From contig CALXXN010000006.1 in NCBI GenBank assembly GCA_944392695.1, positions 1 to 64,000 on the forward strand: a stretch of DNA of 64,000 nt, given 5' to 3'. This document shows, piece after piece, positions 4,603 to 61,741 of the stretch. Made by a program: the position numbers and the translations under genes. Each line of letters starts with the position of its first letter. The stretch's first letter is position 1. The notes under the pieces were generated by a model. That model was not told where the DNA came from and did not search any database. It saw only the letters and a list, made by a program, of their open reading frames with translations. The stretch comes from an uncultured Spirochaetales bacterium (lineage in GTDB: Bacteria; Spirochaetota; Spirochaetia; Sphaerochaetales; Sphaerochaetaceae).

Positions 4603-7419
4603 ATGAGCAAGGCTTTCAGAGAAATCAAGACCGGCCTCCTGCCTGATGGCAAGGCCAGTGGTACGTTATATAAGCATGTGGCAAAGGGCATGGAGGTCTT
4701 CCATGTCGAGGCTGACGACAGCGAGTCATGTTTCGCCTACAGCTTCAAGACACTTCCTTTTGATTCCACCGGGGTCTTCCACATCATAGAGCACACCGTG
4801 CTGTCCGGGAGCGCCAAGTATCCGGTGAAGGATCCCTTCACCTTGCTTGATGCCCACTCTTGCAACTCATATATGAACGCACTGACCTTCCCTGACAGGA
4901 CGGTCTACCCAGGCGCCAGCCCTGTCCTCAAGGATTTCTGGAACATCTTCCGCCTCTATACTGACAGTGTCTTCGCACCCCTGCTGCGCCGCAGCTCCTT
5001 CGAGACCGAGGGCATAAGGCTGGGCGATGGGTCGTTCGAAGGCGTCGTATTCAACGAGATGCGTGGTGACCGCATCCAGGACGAGGCCCTTGCCGCGGCC
5101 TGGTCGAGGAGGGGGCTTTACCCTGGTACGGCCTATGGCATGTCGTCTGGAGGTGATGTCCATGAGATGGCCTTGTTGTCTTATGAGGCTTACAAGGAGA
5201 CATGGAAACGCTTCTACTGTCCTGCCAACTGCCGCCTGATGGTCTATGGAAAGGACATCGACATCGACCAGGTGCTCGACTTCCTTGAGGATGCCTACCT
5301 TTCCAAGCTTGAAGCGGGAAACGAGGCCCCATCCGTCCCTCCAACGGCCAGGTGGCCTTGGGAACGCCATGTCACAGTGCCATGCCAGGGGCTCACACCT
5401 GATGCCAAGGGCGACTTCCTGGTCTCATTCCTGACCCATGGCATGGCCTGGGACCCCTATGACAACCTCTTCTCATCTGTCTTGGTCGATGCCCTCCTTG
5501 GAGGGGCTTCGAATCCACTTTACAAGGCCCTTCTCGACTGTGGCCTCGGTGATGATGTCAGTGAGCAGTGTGGCATGAGTGGTGACTTCAATGAGATCCC
5601 CTTCACAGTCGGCATGAGTGGGGTGGCTGAGGAGGACCTGGACAAGCTCAGGTCCTTCATCATGGACAGCCTTTCAAAGCTCGCCAGGGACGGGATAGGT
5701 GAGGATGTCATAGAAGCCTCGATCCGTAGGCAGGAGTTCCTCCTCCAGGAGGTCAGTGGTGGCATGCCGCGTGGCTTCAGGATCTTCATGAAGTGCATAA
5801 GGGCCTGGGATAGGGGCGGTGACATCTGGGCCGCCCTCGACACAGGGGATGCCATAAGGAGGCTCCGTGAAGGGCTGTCTGCCAATCCAAGGCTCTTCGA
5901 GGACTGGATCCAGGAGGAACTCATTGACAACCCCCACCGCCTCTGCCTCCATGTGCGTCCTGAGGAGGATCTTGTGACGAAGGAGGAAGAGGAGCTCAGG
6001 CGGCTATACAAGGAGAGGCTTGAGAAGCTTCCCCCTGTGCCCTGTGGGGACGAGGAGTGGCTTGAGGACACAGCATCTCTCTTCGAGCGCCTGACAATCG
6101 ACGATGTCGACAAGGAATGTGATCAATTACAACAGGAGGAGGTCTTCCCCGGACTGCTCTATGACAAGGAGGACAGTGGGGACGTGTGCTATCTGACTCT
6201 TGTCGGGGATTTGAGCGACCAAGGTCCTGAAGAGCAGCTTGCGGCGCTTGTCTTGTCCCGCTATGCCCTGATGGCAGGGCGTGAAGGCGAGGATGCCTCA
6301 CTCTTCCACCGTGCCTTGAGGCTATCAAGTGGTGGCTACTATGCGTATATCGAGACAGGCCGGGCCTCGGATGACGAGGTCAAGATCATGTACACACTCC
6401 GGATCAAGTGTCTTTCAAGGGATGTGGAGGACTGTCTTGGCCTAATGCGGGATTGGATCGTCCGCCTCGACAGGCATGACACGGCAGCATGTCAGAACGC
6501 GATCGCAGACCTCATAGGTGATTACGAAGCCTATGTCGAGGAGTCCGGTTCATCCTTCGCCTCCTCGCTGGCCTGCGCCCCGCTGAGCCCTTCCTTGTCA
6601 CTGGGGGAGGACCTGATGGGTATCACCGCATGGGAGAGGCTCTGCGGTACAGCCCTGGGGGAAATGCTTGGGGGCATCTCACACGTCCTTGACAGGCTCC
6701 TCGACAGGAAACGGCTGACCTTGCAGCTCGCTTCCTCCAAGTCCTTCAAGGAAGAAGGCCTGGCCTTGTGCAAGGCCTTCCTGGAGTCTTTTGAGGAAGG
6801 CGGTGGCTGTGCTGGAGGATGGTCCCATCCCCTGACACATGAAGCCGGCACCCATGTCTACCGTCTCCCCTCATCCCTCGCTTACAACGCCGCCGCCCTT
6901 CCTACCAGCAAGTGGCCAAGCATTGAGCAGGAGGCTGAGGCCATCTTCCTCCAGGTCCTCTCCACAGGGACCTTGTGGAATGAGCTCCGCGTCATCGGTG
7001 GGGCCTATGGAGCTGACGCCTCCCTCGACACGATGGAGGAGGTGATGGTCCTGATGAGCTACCGCGACCCACATCTCGCATCGAGTTTCGATGCGATGAG
7101 GCGGGCGGTATTGGATTGCAAGCCAAGCCCTGGGGAGGTGGAAGACGCCAAGCTTGGACGCATGGGAAGGATGTTGAAGCCGCAACGCCCCTCACAGCGC
7201 TCGGTGACAGCACTGAGGAGGACGATGTACAAGATCAGCGATGAGATGAGGGCTGAGCGCAGGAGGTGCCTGCGTGAGCTCGACCATGCCTCTGTCATGG
7301 CCGCGAGGGAACGCATCCTTTCAGCCCTGCCCAATGCTTCCTACGCCTCCCTCTCAGGTCCTGCGCTGGTTTCACAAGAGCTTCCAGAGGGCGCTGTTGT
7401 TGAAGAGCTGCCTTCCTGA
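4603..7419 (+). CDS. M16 family zinc peptidase (PreP/insulinase-like)
   Basis: About 938 residues, the size of a single-chain presequence-protease-type M16C peptidase, which degrades short unfolded peptides in a closed chamber. The inverted zinc motif HxxEH is seen as HIIEH (residues 60-64), followed by L-S-G-S-x-K-Y-P-V-K-D-P-F typical of PreP, and the third zinc ligand lies in VVFNEMRG (about residue 152). Two homologous halves are expected and the length fits. No signal peptide, so cytoplasmic. The open frame extends back to 4501 inside vsr, but the ATG at 4603 (MSKAFREI) starts the conserved region; the Shine-Dalgarno there is poor, so a GTG at 4582 is an alternative. Confidence 0.88.
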   Translation: MSKAFREIKTGLLPDGKASGTLYKHVAKGMEVFHVEADDSESCFAYSFKTLPFDSTGVFHIIEHTVLSGSAKYPVKDPFTLLDAHSCNSYMNALTFPDRTVYPGASPVLKDFWNIFRLYTDSVFAPLLRRSSFETEGIRLGDGSFEGVVFNEMRGDRIQDEALAAAWSRRGLYPGTAYGMSSGGDVHEMALLSYEAYKETWKRFYCPANCRLMVYGKDIDIDQVLDFLEDAYLSKLEAGNEAPSVPPTARWPWERHVTVPCQGLTPDAKGDFLVSFLTHGMAWDPYDNLFSSVLVDALLGGASNPLYKALLDCGLGDDVSEQCGMSGDFNEIPFTVGMSGVAEEDLDKLRSFIMDSLSKLARDGIGEDVIEASIRRQEFLLQEVSGGMPRGFRIFMKCIRAWDRGGDIWAALDTGDAIRRLREGLSANPRLFEDWIQEELIDNPHRLCLHVRPEEDLVTKEEEELRRLYKERLEKLPPVPCGDEEWLEDTASLFERLTIDDVDKECDQLQQEEVFPGLLYDKEDSGDVCYLTLVGDLSDQGPEEQLAALVLSRYALMAGREGEDASLFHRALRLSSGGYYAYIETGRASDDEVKIMYTLRIKCLSRDVEDCLGLMRDWIVRLDRHDTAACQNAIADLIGDYEAYVEESGSSFASSLACAPLSPSLSLGEDLMGITAWERLCGTALGEMLGGISHVLDRLLDRKRLTLQLASSKSFKEEGLALCKAFLESFEEGGGCAGGWSHPLTHEAGTHVYRLPSSLAYNAAALPTSKWPSIEQEAEAIFLQVLSTGTLWNELRVIGGAYGADASLDTMEEVMVLMSYRDPHLASSFDAMRRAVLDCKPSPGEVEDAKLGRMGRMLKPQRPSQRSVTALRRTMYKISDEMRAERRRCLRELDHASVMAARERILSALPNASYASLSGPALVSQELPEGAVVEELPS

Positions 7420-37374: not shown

Positions 37375-38025
37375 TCACTGATTCCCAGGCAGTTTGCTCC
37401 TCCTGTACAAAAGGGAGATGGCAAGTGCGAAGGACAGTGCGCATACTGCTGTACCTGAAATGCTGTTGAGCAAGATGTCATTGCCGTTGTCCATGCCACC
37501 AAAGGAGGCAAGCATCATCATCTGCATCGTCAGCATCGAAAGGGCTGTATCCACATAGGAGCAGCAACGTATGACGATGAAGGCTCCTGACTTCTGGCTC
37601 TTCGCCTTGACTGCCTTTTGTATGGTCACACCAAGGCGGAAGAAGGTGTAGGTCGCCACTGTGATCGCGGCGATGTCGTCATAGCGTACGGCGTGGTCCT
37701 CGCTGAGTGCGAGGTGGACGAAGCCTCCGAGTATGATTGAGAGAGAGATGAGGAGGGCTGCGCACAGGCCCATGATGGAACGGTCACTCAGCCTGCCTGT
37801 CTTCTCTGGGGCCCTATGGTTGAGCAGGGCGAGCGTCCTCATCATGGCTAAGGCGAGGTAGTAGGCCGCCATGGTGATCAGCCAAGCTGAAGTATCGATG
37901 ATTCCGAGGGCCGCGTTGTATACCGCGTACAAGCAGCTGACAAGGAGGCTGAATGAGGCGGAGAGCATCGTCCTCCTGTCCTTGTCATGGCGCAGGGCTG
38001 TTACGAGGTCCCGGAGCGTGTTCAT
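37375..38025 (-). CDS. Uncharacterised multi-pass membrane protein
   Basis: A 216-residue protein with about six hydrophobic helices; loops contain H-R-A-P-E-K-T-G and K-A-K-S-Q-K-S-G. I do not recognise a family. It is coupled to the small membrane protein upstream (ATGA overlap) and so shares the promoter with the TGAAACA repeats. It is probably a target of the neighbouring two-component system; its job cannot be inferred further. Confidence 0.6.
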   Translation of the reverse strand: MNTLRDLVTALRHDKDRRTMLSASFSLLVSCLYAVYNAALGIIDTSAWLITMAAYYLALAMMRTLALLNHRAPEKTGRLSDRSIMGLCAALLISLSIILGGFVHLALSEDHAVRYDDIAAITVATYTFFRLGVTIQKAVKAKSQKSGAFIVIRCCSYVDTALSMLTMQMMMLASFGGMDNGNDILLNSISGTAVCALSFALAISLLYRRSKLPGNQ

Positions 38026-38384
38026 CTTTCTTCAAGATCCCCTGTAAGACGCCTGACCTCATCGGCCTTGGCCTTGCGCCCCCTCTTCAGCAGGGTCTTG
38101 TACAGCGGCCAGCTGAGGAAGGCGCCTGCGAAGCCTGCAAGTCCGAGGGGGACTCCCGCCATATAGTTCATCGCGACAAGACAGAGGGAGGTCCCCGCCC
38201 CTGCAGCCAGGGTTGCGATGATGCCCAGCGTTATCGCAGGGCCTGCGGCCTTGCGCTTCACACTGCGTTCTATCGCCTCCAGCTTCTCAAGCCTCGTCTC
38301 AGCATGACCCAGGTAGAGCTCGCGGATTTCGCGGCAACGCTCCTCTTCGGATGCTGAGTATGTGATATCAAGATTGTCGCTCAT
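38022..38384 (-). CDS. Small two-helix membrane protein, paralogue B
   Basis: A 120-residue protein: a charged N-terminal helix (E-L-Y-L-G-H-A-E-T-R-L-E-K-L-E-A-I-E), two transmembrane segments (about residues 48-70 and 75-96), then a basic tail (K-R-G-R-K-A-K). It is clearly homologous to the next gene upstream, sharing L-Y-L-G-H-x-x-T-x-L-E-K-L-E and A-G-A-G. The ATG at 38384 has GGGAGG 6 nt upstream. Family unknown to me. Its promoter carries two TGAAACA heptamers 11 bp apart. Confidence 0.7.
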   Translation of the reverse strand: MSDNLDITYSASEEERCREIRELYLGHAETRLEKLEAIERSVKRKAAGPAITLGIIATLAAGAGTSLCLVAMNYMAGVPLGLAGFAGAFLSWPLYKTLLKRGRKAKADEVRRLTGDLEER

Positions 38385-38410
38385 TAAAATCCTCCCACGA
38401 CAGCTGGCCC

Positions 38411-38419
38411 ATGATAGCA
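38411..38419 (-). promoter_or_regulatory. Extended -10 of the paralogue B operon
   Basis: Minus strand TGcTATCAT (hexamer 38416-38411), no consensus -35. The regulator repeats end 21 bp upstream of it, where they could substitute for a -35. Confidence 0.55.
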
Positions 38420-38437
38420 CATAGAGGCAGGGCTGTT

Positions 38438-38455
38438 TGTTTCACAGATGTTTCA
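38438..38455 (-). promoter_or_regulatory. Response-regulator box B (two TGAAACA repeats)
   Basis: On the minus strand two perfect TGAAACA heptamers (38455-38449 and 38444-38438) 11 bp apart, i.e. on the same helix face. OmpR-family regulators bind such direct repeats. The same heptamer recurs before the outer-membrane protein gene. Confidence 0.6.
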
Positions 38456-38797
38456 AGCCCTGGCAAGGGCCTCGACTTCCTTGGCCCTGGCATTGCGGCC
38501 TTTCTTGACCAGTGACTTGTAGAGTGGCCAGGTGATGGCCATGCCGATGAAACCAATGAGCCCCACTGGGATGCCGATGATGAAGGCGCCAAGGGTCATG
38601 GCAAATGACATCCCAGCTCCTGCCACAAGTGCTGAGATGATGCCGATGATGATCACTGGGATTGATGCGTTGCGTGTGACCTCTTTTTCAATATCCTCAA
38701 GCTTCTCGAGCTTGGTCTTCTCGTGTCCGAGGTACAGGTCTGAGAGTGTGTTGAACTTCTCTTCCGCTGCTGTGTTGTTTGAAAAGCTGTTGTTCAT
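38453..38797 (-). CDS. Small two-helix membrane protein, paralogue A
   Basis: A 114-residue paralogue of the next gene: L-Y-L-G-H-E-K-T-K-L-E-K-L-E-D-I-E, then two transmembrane helices (V-I-I-I-G-I-I-S-A-L-V-A-G-A-G and the following G-A-F-I-I-G-I-P-V-G-L-I-G-F-I-G), then a basic tail. AGGAGG precedes the ATG. Transcribed separately from paralogue B, with its own repeat element upstream. Neither protein belongs to a family I can name; the duplication and shared control suggest they form a complex or act at the membrane during stress. Confidence 0.7.
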   Translation of the reverse strand: MNNSFSNNTAAEEKFNTLSDLYLGHEKTKLEKLEDIEKEVTRNASIPVIIIGIISALVAGAGMSFAMTLGAFIIGIPVGLIGFIGMAITWPLYKSLVKKGRNARAKEVEALARA

Positions 38798-38848
38798 CTT
38801 CTGCTTTCCTCCTGATGGCTACAACTTAGCAGCTGGCTCTTTCATATC

Positions 38849-38877
38849 TTTGTCAAGTACGTTTCCCAGATGTTTCT
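38849..38877 (-). promoter_or_regulatory. Response-regulator box C (degenerate repeats)
   Basis: Minus strand AGAAACA (38877-38871) and GGAAACG (38866-38860), 11 bp apart, weaker matches to TGAAACA. A minus-strand TTGACA (38856-38851) follows, possibly the -35 of the paralogue A gene, though no -10 fits well. Confidence 0.4.
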
Positions 38878-39928
38878 AAAGCGGGAAGCGGACGCTCATC
38901 TTCGTCCCGGCCCCTGGGGAGCTCTCAACACGGATCTCGAGGCCGAGTATGTCGACAATGCGTTTCACCATGGCAAGCCCAAGGCCATTGCCCTCGACCT
39001 TGCGTGAGCTGTCAGCACGCCAGAAGCGGTCGAAGATATGGGCACCTTCCTCTTTGGAGATGCCCTTGCCATGGTCTGAGATGCTGACAAGAGGTCCTCC
39101 TGCCGTGTTCTTGACAGTGAGTCCGATCGTCCCACCCTGTGGACTGAACTTGACCGCGTTTGAAGCGATGTTGCGCCAGATGATGTACAGGAGCCCTGGG
39201 TCGCTGGTGACATGGATCGACTCATCAATGTCGGTCTCAAACGAGAGCCCCTTTTCTTCAATCGCCTGGTCGTAGGAGAGGACCGCCTCGATCAATGACT
39301 CTGAGAGCTGGACTTCCTGCCTCTCCGGGTAAATCTCCTGGTTCTCAAGCCTGTTGAGTTCGAGTATGTCGCTGACCAGGCGGCTCAGGCGCTTGGTCTC
39401 ACGGACGATGTTGTCCGTGTACTCCTTGGTCTCCTCCGGCGAGAGCGCGGGCTGGCAGAGGAGGGATGCGTATTCCTGTATGACATTCAAGGGGCTTTTG
39501 AGCTCATGTGAGACATTTGCTGTGAAGTCGAGCCGCAGTGTTTCGATGCCTCCAAGCTCTTGTGCAAGCCTGTTGATGTCCTGGGCGATCTGGTTGAAGG
39601 AGCCCTCCCTCCTGCCCACTGCCAACCGGGCGGAGAAATCCCCTTGTGCAAGTCTTGAAATGACAGCATCCACCTGGCGGAGGTTGTTACGCGAGTGGAT
39701 GGTCGATACCACGATGAAGACCACGGTCAGCACAAGGCTGAGGGCGATCGCACATAGGAAGGTGTAGATGGCGGCCTCATTGATCTGCTCCTCGCTGAAG
39801 CGCATGCCGAGGGCTTCCTGGACCTGGTTCAGGAAGAGTGTGATCGTGATGCTCACGATCAGGCATACGAGCATGAAGATCAGGAAGAAGGCGCTTGCAG
39901 CAGCTGCCCAGTGCCTGTAGCCCTTCAT
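38876..39928 (-). CDS. Sensor histidine kinase (HAMP-HisKA-HATPase)
   Basis: A 350-residue membrane kinase. Two transmembrane helices (about residues 12-34 and 54-76) flank a very short (~20-residue) outer loop, then a HAMP domain (R-Q-V-D-A-V-I-S-R-L-A-Q-G-D-F), phosphoacceptor His in NVSHELKSPL, N box IASNAVKF, G1 SDHGKGI, F box and G2 GNGLGLAMV. The tiny sensor loop is typical of kinases that sense inside the membrane or through partner membrane proteins, which fits the small membrane proteins encoded alongside. Overlaps the regulator gene by 4 nt. Confidence 0.93.
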   Translation of the reverse strand: MKGYRHWAAAASAFFLIFMLVCLIVSITITLFLNQVQEALGMRFSEEQINEAAIYTFLCAIALSLVLTVVFIVVSTIHSRNNLRQVDAVISRLAQGDFSARLAVGRREGSFNQIAQDINRLAQELGGIETLRLDFTANVSHELKSPLNVIQEYASLLCQPALSPEETKEYTDNIVRETKRLSRLVSDILELNRLENQEIYPERQEVQLSESLIEAVLSYDQAIEEKGLSFETDIDESIHVTSDPGLLYIIWRNIASNAVKFSPQGGTIGLTVKNTAGGPLVSISDHGKGISKEEGAHIFDRFWRADSSRKVEGNGLGLAMVKRIVDILGLEIRVESSPGAGTKMSVRFPL

Positions 39929-40596
39929 TTCACAACCGCCTTGTAGCCAAGTCCGTGCACAGTCTGGATCTCAACGGAGCCTGATGCGGCGATCTTGTCC
40001 CTGAGCCTCGTGACAAGGACGTCGACCGACCTGGGGGAGGCCTCGCTGCCTCCATCCCAGAGCCCTTCCATCAGCTGGGCACGGGTGAAGACCTTCCTGG
40101 GGTAGGAGAGGAGCTTGTAGAGGAGTTCGAACTCACGCTTGGTCAGGTGGACCTCCTCTCCTGAGACAGCTGCGCTGTACTCATCGAGGTCTAGGACCAG
40201 GTCGCCTGCCTCAAGGTGGCGTGACTTCTCGATCTTGTAGCGCCTGAGCAGGCTTCCTATCCTGAGTTCAAGCTCCTCGAGCTCTATAGGTTTGACCATG
40301 TAGTCGTCTATGCCGAGGGAGAAACCACGCGCCTTGGCGTTCATGTCGCCCCTGGCGCTGATGAACATCACGGGGATGTCAGGGTCGTCCTGGCGCAGGG
40401 CCTCGGCGAATTCGAATCCATCGACAGGGCTCATCATGATGTCCGTGATGACGATATCCGCCTTCTTCTCGTAAAGCTCGTCCCAGGCTTCGTTAGGTCC
40501 CTCGACGCCAACAGCATCGAAGCCCCTGCGCACCAGGTATGATACTACGGCCTTCCTCTGGAGCTCATCATCTTCGACGACAAGTACACGGACCAT
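39925..40596 (-). CDS. OmpR-family response regulator
   Basis: A 223-residue regulator: receiver domain with the acidic pocket E8-D9-D10 and phosphoacceptor in VITDIMMSPVDG (about Asp53), Lys in YMVKPIE, and a C-terminal winged helix ending in the typical V-D-V-L-V-T-R-L-R-D-K-I ... T-V-H-G-L-G-Y-K. GGAGGAG lies 6-7 nt before the ATG. It follows the outer-membrane protein gene by 19 nt and overlaps the kinase. It is the probable reader of the TGAAACA repeats nearby. Confidence 0.94.
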   Translation of the reverse strand: MVRVLVVEDDELQRKAVVSYLVRRGFDAVGVEGPNEAWDELYEKKADIVITDIMMSPVDGFEFAEALRQDDPDIPVMFISARGDMNAKARGFSLGIDDYMVKPIELEELELRIGSLLRRYKIEKSRHLEAGDLVLDLDEYSAAVSGEEVHLTKREFELLYKLLSYPRKVFTRAQLMEGLWDGGSEASPRSVDVLVTRLRDKIAASGSVEIQTVHGLGYKAVVK

Positions 40597-40615
40597 GGCT
40601 CAGCTCCTCCGGATC

Positions 40616-41137
40616 TTAATAAGTGAAGCCGACAGCGAGGGATGGTGCGACATGGAAGACACCGTTGAAACCAACATCCCCGTTCGAAAGGCCGACCCCC
40701 AGGATATCGTAGCCCAAAGTCGCGCCGAGGAGAAGGGCGGTGTGGCTTGTCATGTGCCAGGTGGCGCCAAGGTAGCCTCCTATGCCAAGGCCGAAGTAGT
40801 CACCATCATCCATCCACTGTCCAGAGAGGGATGCTCCCAGTGCGACGTCGATGGACAGGTTTGCTTCTGGGAAGAAGTAGCTGTAGGCAGGTCCGACAAG
40901 CATGTTGACCGCCCAGTCAGGATCGGCGAGGTCTCCAAAACCTGCGTTGATGCCAACGAAGTAGCCAACAGGGGCGTCATTGATGAAGCCGAAGTTCTGG
41001 CTGCTGAGGCCGCCAAGATGGGAGCCATCCCTGTACTGGTAGCTGCCACCGATGGAGCTGACACCCTCAACGGATGCGGATGTTGGTACGATGGCCAATG
41101 CGGCCACGATGAGGATGAGGAACATTTTCCTTTTCAT
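40616..41137 (-). CDS. Small outer-membrane beta-barrel protein
   Basis: A 173-residue exported protein: signal peptide M-K-R-K-M-F-L-I-L-I-V-A-A-L-A with a likely cut after T-S-A-S, then alternating aromatic and glycine-rich strands (G-S-Y-Q-Y, V-G-Y-F-V-G-I-N-A-G-F, L-G-I-G-G-Y-L-G-A-T-W) and a terminal A-V-G-F-T-Y, an aromatic end expected of an 8-strand barrel. It is the first gene of the unit with the regulator and kinase. Its Shine-Dalgarno lies in the loop of a hairpin, and three regulator repeats lie upstream. Confidence 0.8.
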   Translation of the reverse strand: MKRKMFLILIVAALAIVPTSASVEGVSSIGGSYQYRDGSHLGGLSSQNFGFINDAPVGYFVGINAGFGDLADPDWAVNMLVGPAYSYFFPEANLSIDVALGASLSGQWMDDGDYFGLGIGGYLGATWHMTSHTALLLGATLGYDILGVGLSNGDVGFNGVFHVAPSLAVGFTY

Positions 41138-41138
41138 T

Positions 41139-41157
41139 GCTGTTATCTCCTAACAGC
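41139..41157 (-). promoter_or_regulatory. Hairpin presenting the Shine-Dalgarno of the barrel gene
   Basis: Minus strand GCTGTTA-GGAGA-TAACAGC: a perfect 7-bp stem with the ribosome-binding site as its 5-nt loop, ending 1 nt before the start codon. It could tune translation (temperature, RNA or protein binding) or protect the mRNA. Confidence 0.6.
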
Positions 41158-41187
41158 AGGGATCCTCACATGTCAGTGCGGCGTTTG

Positions 41188-41216
41188 TCTTTCACTCCTG
41201 TTTCACTATTGTTTCA
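41188..41216 (-). promoter_or_regulatory. Response-regulator box A (three heptamers)
   Basis: Minus strand TGAAACA (41216-41210), TGAAACA (41205-41199), TGAAAGA (41194-41188), each exactly 11 bp from the next. About 20 bp downstream is a TGtGAGGAT element that could be an activator-dependent extended -10. Same heptamer as box B. Confidence 0.65.
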
Positions 41217-61668: not shown

Positions 61669-61713
61669 AACGTCCTCCGACAATGATTCAAACGCCAATT
61701 TGTTACAAAGAGA

Positions 61714-61741
61714 TTAACAATACGTGAACTTGTGGTAATAA
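61714..61741 (+). promoter_or_regulatory. Possible promoter of the MFS transporter
   Basis: TTAACA (61714-61719), 16 bp, TAATAA (61736-61741). It makes the GTG at 61732 an impossible start if used. Confidence 0.35.

Follow-up and report, generated by a model that had tools for sequence, protein, structure and literature searches.

We analysed a 64-kb window of the genome of an uncultured Spirochaetales bacterium (contig CALXXN010000006.1, positions 1 to 64,000). Within it, positions 37375-41216 encode an OmpR/PhoB-class response regulator and a sensor histidine kinase beside a small outer-membrane beta-barrel-like protein and three further membrane proteins. It is likely that this module is a positively autoregulated two-component system that acts on the neighbouring membrane-protein genes through arrays of 7-bp boxes repeated every 11 bp. 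The boxes very probably are the regulator's own operators, because distant gut bacteria with the same genes carry the same predicted boxes at the same spacing.

Genes and box arrays of the locus

An earlier reading of the window, made from sequence only, had listed six genes here: a barrel, a regulator, a kinase, two hairpin paralogues and a membrane protein. All six are intact and lie on the minus strand, and Pfam recognises both the kinase and the regulator. Coordinates are positions in the window.

40616-41137, minus strand: omp, first gene of the operon, small outer-membrane beta-barrel-like protein of 173 amino acids (aa); open reading frame (ORF), barrel nature judged from its sequence
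39925-40596, minus strand: regulator, OmpR/PhoB-class response regulator; Pfam Response_reg and Trans_reg_C
38876-39928, minus strand: kinase, sensor histidine kinase with two apparent membrane helices; Pfam HisKA and HATPase_c, sub-threshold HAMP
38453-38797, minus strand: paralogue A, two-helix membrane hairpin protein; ORF, family alignment and AlphaFold model
38022-38384, minus strand: paralogue B, two-helix membrane hairpin protein; ATG at 38384 within a longer listed frame, relatives aligned
37375-38025, minus strand: mem, six-helix membrane protein with a predicted CDF/ZnT transmembrane fold; AlphaFold and structure comparison

The omp, regulator and kinase genes form one apparent operon. 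The kinase gene overlaps the regulator gene by 4 bp, as does mem the paralogue B gene. Paralogues A and B are 45-48% identical to each other. Among the window proteins searched, omp, both paralogues and mem match no Pfam family and have no NCBIfam name.

The sequence-only reading had also reported TGAAACA-type boxes spaced 11 bp apart before three transcription units, and these are present where it placed them.

41188-41216, minus strand: predicted operators of the omp-regulator-kinase operon; three boxes (41216-41210, 41205-41199 and 41194-41188); TGAAACAatagTGAAACAggagTGAAAGA at 41216-41188
38838-38877, minus strand: predicted operators upstream of paralogue A; four boxes (AGAAACA, GGAAACG, TGACAAA, TGAAAGA) in 11-bp register
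38823-38828, minus strand: TGC-extended -10 hexamer, TAAGTT, 9 nt past the fourth paralogue A box, a spacing that matches Clostridia promoters
38438-38455, minus strand: predicted operator before paralogue B; two perfect boxes, TGAAACAtctgTGAAACA
38411-38416, minus strand: candidate TGC-extended -10, TATCAT, 21 nt past the paralogue B boxes

Before paralogue A, the pair AGAAACAtctgGGAAACG at 38877-38860 overlaps the kinase stop and runs on in register as tactTGACAAAgataTGAAAGA to 38838 (AGAAACA tctg GGAAACG tact TGACAAA gata TGAAAGA, then 9 nt, then TAAGTT). Two weaker boxes had been described at this site; the pair stands and the count does not, since four boxes in register precede the -10 hexamer. 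The first TGA of the paralogue B boxes (38455) is the stop codon of paralogue A. The candidate -10 of paralogue B lies about one helical turn beyond the usual 9 nt, and the distance is similarly long before the regulator of a relative from another family of the phylum (L171, below).

These repeats are rare in the genome. A genome scan for TGAAACA-N4-TGAAACA, proposed in the sequence-only reading, finds the perfect pair only here, twice in 2,310,473 bp. When one mismatch is allowed there are five matches, three of them in this locus, and a reversed control gives none. The other two lie on contig C2, at C2:51898-51915 and C2:53304-53321 (L129, about 5899-5916 and 7305-7322), on the same strand and 1.4 kb apart. 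Downstream of them are a short ORF and one of 440 aa; the latter has an HHxxxDG motif and is acyltransferase/condensation-like by eye, with no Pfam match. These two sites may mark further regulon members.

The same boxes in distant relatives

A search with the regulator yielded 80 loci at 52-58% identity, nearly all from gut Clostridia. Most of these loci have, after the regulator gene, first a kinase gene, then a mem relative and then a hairpin paralogue. When 6-mers repeated at an 11-bp offset were counted without a seed upstream of Clostridia genes, TTAACA and TTTAAC led, and the promoters contain TTTAACA/TCAAACA-like boxes every 11 bp. A 7-mer repeat with at most one mismatch occurs at 11 bp in 43 of the 80 regulator promoters, compared with 5-16 at other offsets from 8 to 30. 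Expectation maximisation (EM) gave the consensus gTAAACAAAACTTTAACATTTgTGTGtTATAAT, present in about three quarters of Clostridia promoters, and a -10 element lies nine bases past the second box in 38 of 57. The EM seed was picked by eye from Clostridia promoters after the window motif was known and so was not blind; the training set contained no window sequence.

Boxes learned from Clostridia alone recover the sites in the window. We scored the averaged 7-bp box, as a pair 11 bp apart, over about 128,000 window positions, and the sites at 41216, 38455, 41205 and 38877 ranked 1st, 2nd, 5th and 12th. Scored as four boxes with the same training, the paralogue A array ranks 3rd. Across 100 dinucleotide shuffles of the window, two sites this good never appeared together and one such site appeared in two. 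The four-box arrangement is itself common in Clostridia: upstream of paralogues with their own promoter, 36 of 101 regions contain four boxes in register at a score of at least 10 (random segments, 1.1%), and every one of the 36 shows a -10-like hexamer exactly 9 nt further on.

Relatives closer to the window give comparable results. L171 and L172 come from other families of the phylum; across each 9-11-kb locus, the highest-scoring site falls 59-65 bp before the regulator. The L172 promoter reads ATTAACAaattCTTAACA-9-TATAAT, and that of L171 reads ATTAACAaataTTTAACA with TATAAT 20 bp further. In three loci from congeners, members of the window's genus (L123-L125), the best or near-best sites precede a paralogue or the regulator, as in L124 (TTTTACAatatTGAAACA-9-TATCCT). 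The regulator's DNA-recognition region is conserved across the relatives that carry boxes. The sequence-only reading had taken same-face direct repeats for OmpR-type operator architecture, and the pattern agrees: the operon of the regulator and two neighbouring units carry such repeats, with comparable predicted footprints in distant relatives.

Several results weigh against this reading. At omp, no clear -10 is seen 9 nt past the boxes. In the 64-kb window alone, a scan allowing up to three mismatches gives six matches against 3.7 expected, which is not significant. A full 55-bp model of four boxes plus -10, built on AT-rich Clostridia, transfers poorly to this GC-rich genome and places paralogue A 10th. 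Recognisable arrays are absent before omp in congener G015 (L123) and before the regulator in L174.

Two further models were set aside. One, a 33-bp EM model for the promoters of paralogues, was abandoned once it had moved into coding sequence; the other, a TKWAACA pair scan of four genomes, was barely above control outside the locus, so no regulon was called. Two other arrays were seen. In G015 (L123), GTTGCATTT-type repeats with a 20-bp period precede omp, upstream of 8601, and suggest a different operator there. In the window, at 61702-61740, a box-like array (GTTACAAagagATTAACA...) that is also an inverted repeat lies between divergent glycosyltransferase-like and MFS-like genes; it scores highly with the four-box model and may belong to another regulator.

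The gene set varies among closer relatives. Six of 15 congeners have an omp orthologue, and it neighbours paralogue, mem or regulator genes. The order is omp-regulator-kinase-paralogue in L123; paralogue-omp-regulator-kinase, with mem divergent, in L124; and paralogue-omp, a MATE-like gene and regulator-kinase-mem in L125. With a paralogue profile, 5 of 247 genomes in the phylum gave relatives. One of the five is the genome of the window, and in three of the other four (L171, L172 and L174) a regulator and kinase adjoin the paralogue.

In congeners G001 and G009, a four-helix, doubled-hairpin-like protein precedes omp, beside a divergent TetR-type gene (L126 5073-7466 and L148 4555-6081). The TetR-type protein of G001 has a TetR_C_8 domain, and that of G009 was assigned by sequence likeness. 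In G001, mem lies between the four-helix protein and omp, and congener G012 has the same mem-omp pair. No regulator orthologue was found in these three congeners at E 1e-40. Genes of the omp, mem and hairpin types can thus exist under other control, which argues that their products are effectors in their own right and not just accessories of the kinase. The description of the locus as a self-contained regulon does not strictly hold, given the two one-mismatch sites on C2 and the TetR-type neighbours of output genes in some congeners.

A small charged protein of about 80-130 aa, probably helical, is encoded in 22 fetched loci (including L062 4631-4873 and L172 260-658). In L062 and L172 its gene immediately precedes that of the regulator, and the protein belongs to no Pfam family. 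A search of open-access full texts with the box strings TTTAACA, TGAAACA and TCAAACA plus two-component terms returned no description of the system. The earlier statement that no system with this gene set had been described agrees with that search. The set is not confined to this genome: regulator, kinase, mem and hairpin recur together across Clostridia. The module appears to be widespread yet undescribed.

A predicted circuit and its known counterparts

The regulator matches Response_reg (2e-25) and Trans_reg_C (2e-22), both above the Pfam gathering cut-off. Tandem direct repeats about 11 bp apart upstream of target genes are a hallmark of its class and are present here as sequence. The extracytoplasmic loop of the kinase, read by eye from the N terminus, has about 20 residues, and Pfam finds no extra sensor domain above cut-off. 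Membership of the phosphate PhoBR system was rejected on NCBIfam cut-offs (PhoB, 151.9 of 296.2 bits; PhoR, 178.2 of 334.2; PnpS, 193.1 of 400).

We propose the following mechanism. The kinase, nearly devoid of an external domain, would pick up a signal at or within the inner membrane. Once phosphorylated, the regulator would then bind the boxes head-to-tail as dimers, by analogy with PhoP and CiaR. The boxes would stand in for a -35 element, so that the regulator recruits RNA polymerase and activates transcription. Activation would raise the output of the kinase pair, the two hairpins, the CDF-fold mem and the outer-membrane protein, and the output proteins may jointly tune the envelope or exert feedback on the kinase. 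Autoregulation is probable: three boxes precede the apparent operon of omp, regulator and kinase, and in Clostridia boxes also stand upstream of the regulator gene itself.

Known systems share parts of this architecture. The crystal structure of Mycobacterium tuberculosis PhoP with DNA has 7-bp motifs, a 4-bp spacer and tandem head-to-tail binding (PMC4832192); the 7+4+7 spacing is identical here, and the motif differs. CiaR of streptococci has the operator TTTAAG-N5-TTTAAG, with an 11-bp period and, in the published search pattern, a -10 ten bases past the second 6-bp repeat (PMC3091779). The 11-bp direct-repeat period is thus shared, with 9 nt from box to -10 here and 10 in the CiaR pattern, and the CiaR recognition helix VVEVYVSKVRKKL resembles that of the window regulator, SVDVLVTRLRDKI. 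The boxes here end in AACA, whereas the CiaR repeat ends in G, and TTTAAG-N5-TTTAAG is not matched. In the portion of the study drawn on here, the CiaR regulon centres on small RNAs (PMC3091779).

In intramembrane-sensing systems such as BceRS and LiaRS, two helices of the kinase are joined by a loop of under about 25 residues, and there is no other sensor domain; by eye, the window kinase appears similar, and it too has membrane proteins among its neighbours. Judged by family and without comparison to their sequences, no gene of the module was recognised as LiaF or as a Bce-type ABC transporter, and LiaR itself falls outside the OmpR class.

The regulator probably activates, by analogy with CiaR, whose promoters of the published pattern are activated (PMC3091779). 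We consider it unlikely that the regulator binds the boxes and mainly represses, or that the sign differs by promoter. Such a role would fit arrays placed in the core promoter region, as well as the sites about one turn further upstream before paralogue B and the L171 regulator. The 9-nt distance from box to -10 is close to the 10 nt that separate the 6-bp motif from the -10 in activated CiaR promoters, and argues against it.

Membrane proteins and alternative readings

The AlphaFold model of mem (pLDDT 89.6) matches the transmembrane domain of CDF/SLC30 zinc transporters over nearly its whole length. Compared with solved structures (VIA), it gives Z 18.2 for ZnT7 and 14.5 for YiiP, and Z 9.0 for the best row outside the CDF fold. 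The predicted six-helix transmembrane fold is held in common at about 10% identity; mem differs from both in lacking evident metal ligands and in ending after helix 6, so that there is no C-terminal domain. The AlphaFold model of paralogue A has pLDDT 83, and a fold search with the hairpin paralogue gave nothing beyond generic helical hairpins and hence no clue to function.

Envelope sensing has perhaps an even chance of being the role of the circuit, and fits the near-absent sensor loop and, regulator aside, the membrane-protein products. The main rival to envelope sensing is a metal-homeostasis circuit, with metal transport by the CDF-fold protein and metal sensing by the kinase, because of the fold of mem and the adjoining copper ATPase/CsoR-like and molybdate-type ABC transporter genes (names read from sequence). 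We regard this as quite unlikely. The nearly invariant columns of the mem family include no paired acidic/His ligands in the helices, and the CDF HxxxD site in helix 2 reads YxxxL by eye; the mapping of the helix-5 ligands rests on a low-probability alignment. Pfam Cation_efflux does not match mem and touches 3 of 46 family members at E <= 0.1 (best, 0.00088; the one tabulated, 18.7 of 26.6 bits), and the family reaches no Pfam cut-off. A separate CDF gene, above the Pfam cut-off, is present elsewhere in the genome. The most economical reading of the model is that mem is a CDF-fold protein without metal transport. More speculatively, and less likely than not, mem would have lost metal transport and, together with the hairpins, would supply the sensing or feedback part inside the membrane for a kinase without a sensor domain of its own.

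It is very improbable that the boxes belong to another regulator and are incidental here: the C2 sites away from the module would fit that reading, but across very distant genomes the boxes track the regulator gene, also standing immediately upstream of it. An origin of the repeats by chance in intergenic DNA, to which the non-significant three-mismatch scan might point, can be dismissed given the genome-wide rarity, the transfer of the Clostridia model, the shuffles and the conserved spacing.

Two relatives of omp match DUF2715 (PF10895, a treponemal outer-membrane family) below threshold, at 14.9 and 16.9 of 22 bits; the window omp has no DUF2715 match in Pfam. From these weak matches and general gene content, the host is probably a diderm spirochaete. 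A part in anti-phage defence was rejected, as PADLOC gave no match for the four membrane and outer-membrane proteins.

For three protein families that are nameless in Pfam and NCBIfam, two of which recur in gut Clostridia and in this organism's relatives, our analysis predicts a regulator, an operator and a set of targets. The operator rule (7-bp boxes every 11 bp, with a -10 nine bp past the last) is sharp enough for sequence-based regulon prediction across many genomes. A transporter fold with apparent loss of its metal site, encoded beside a sensor-less kinase, offers a testable model of intramembrane sensing.

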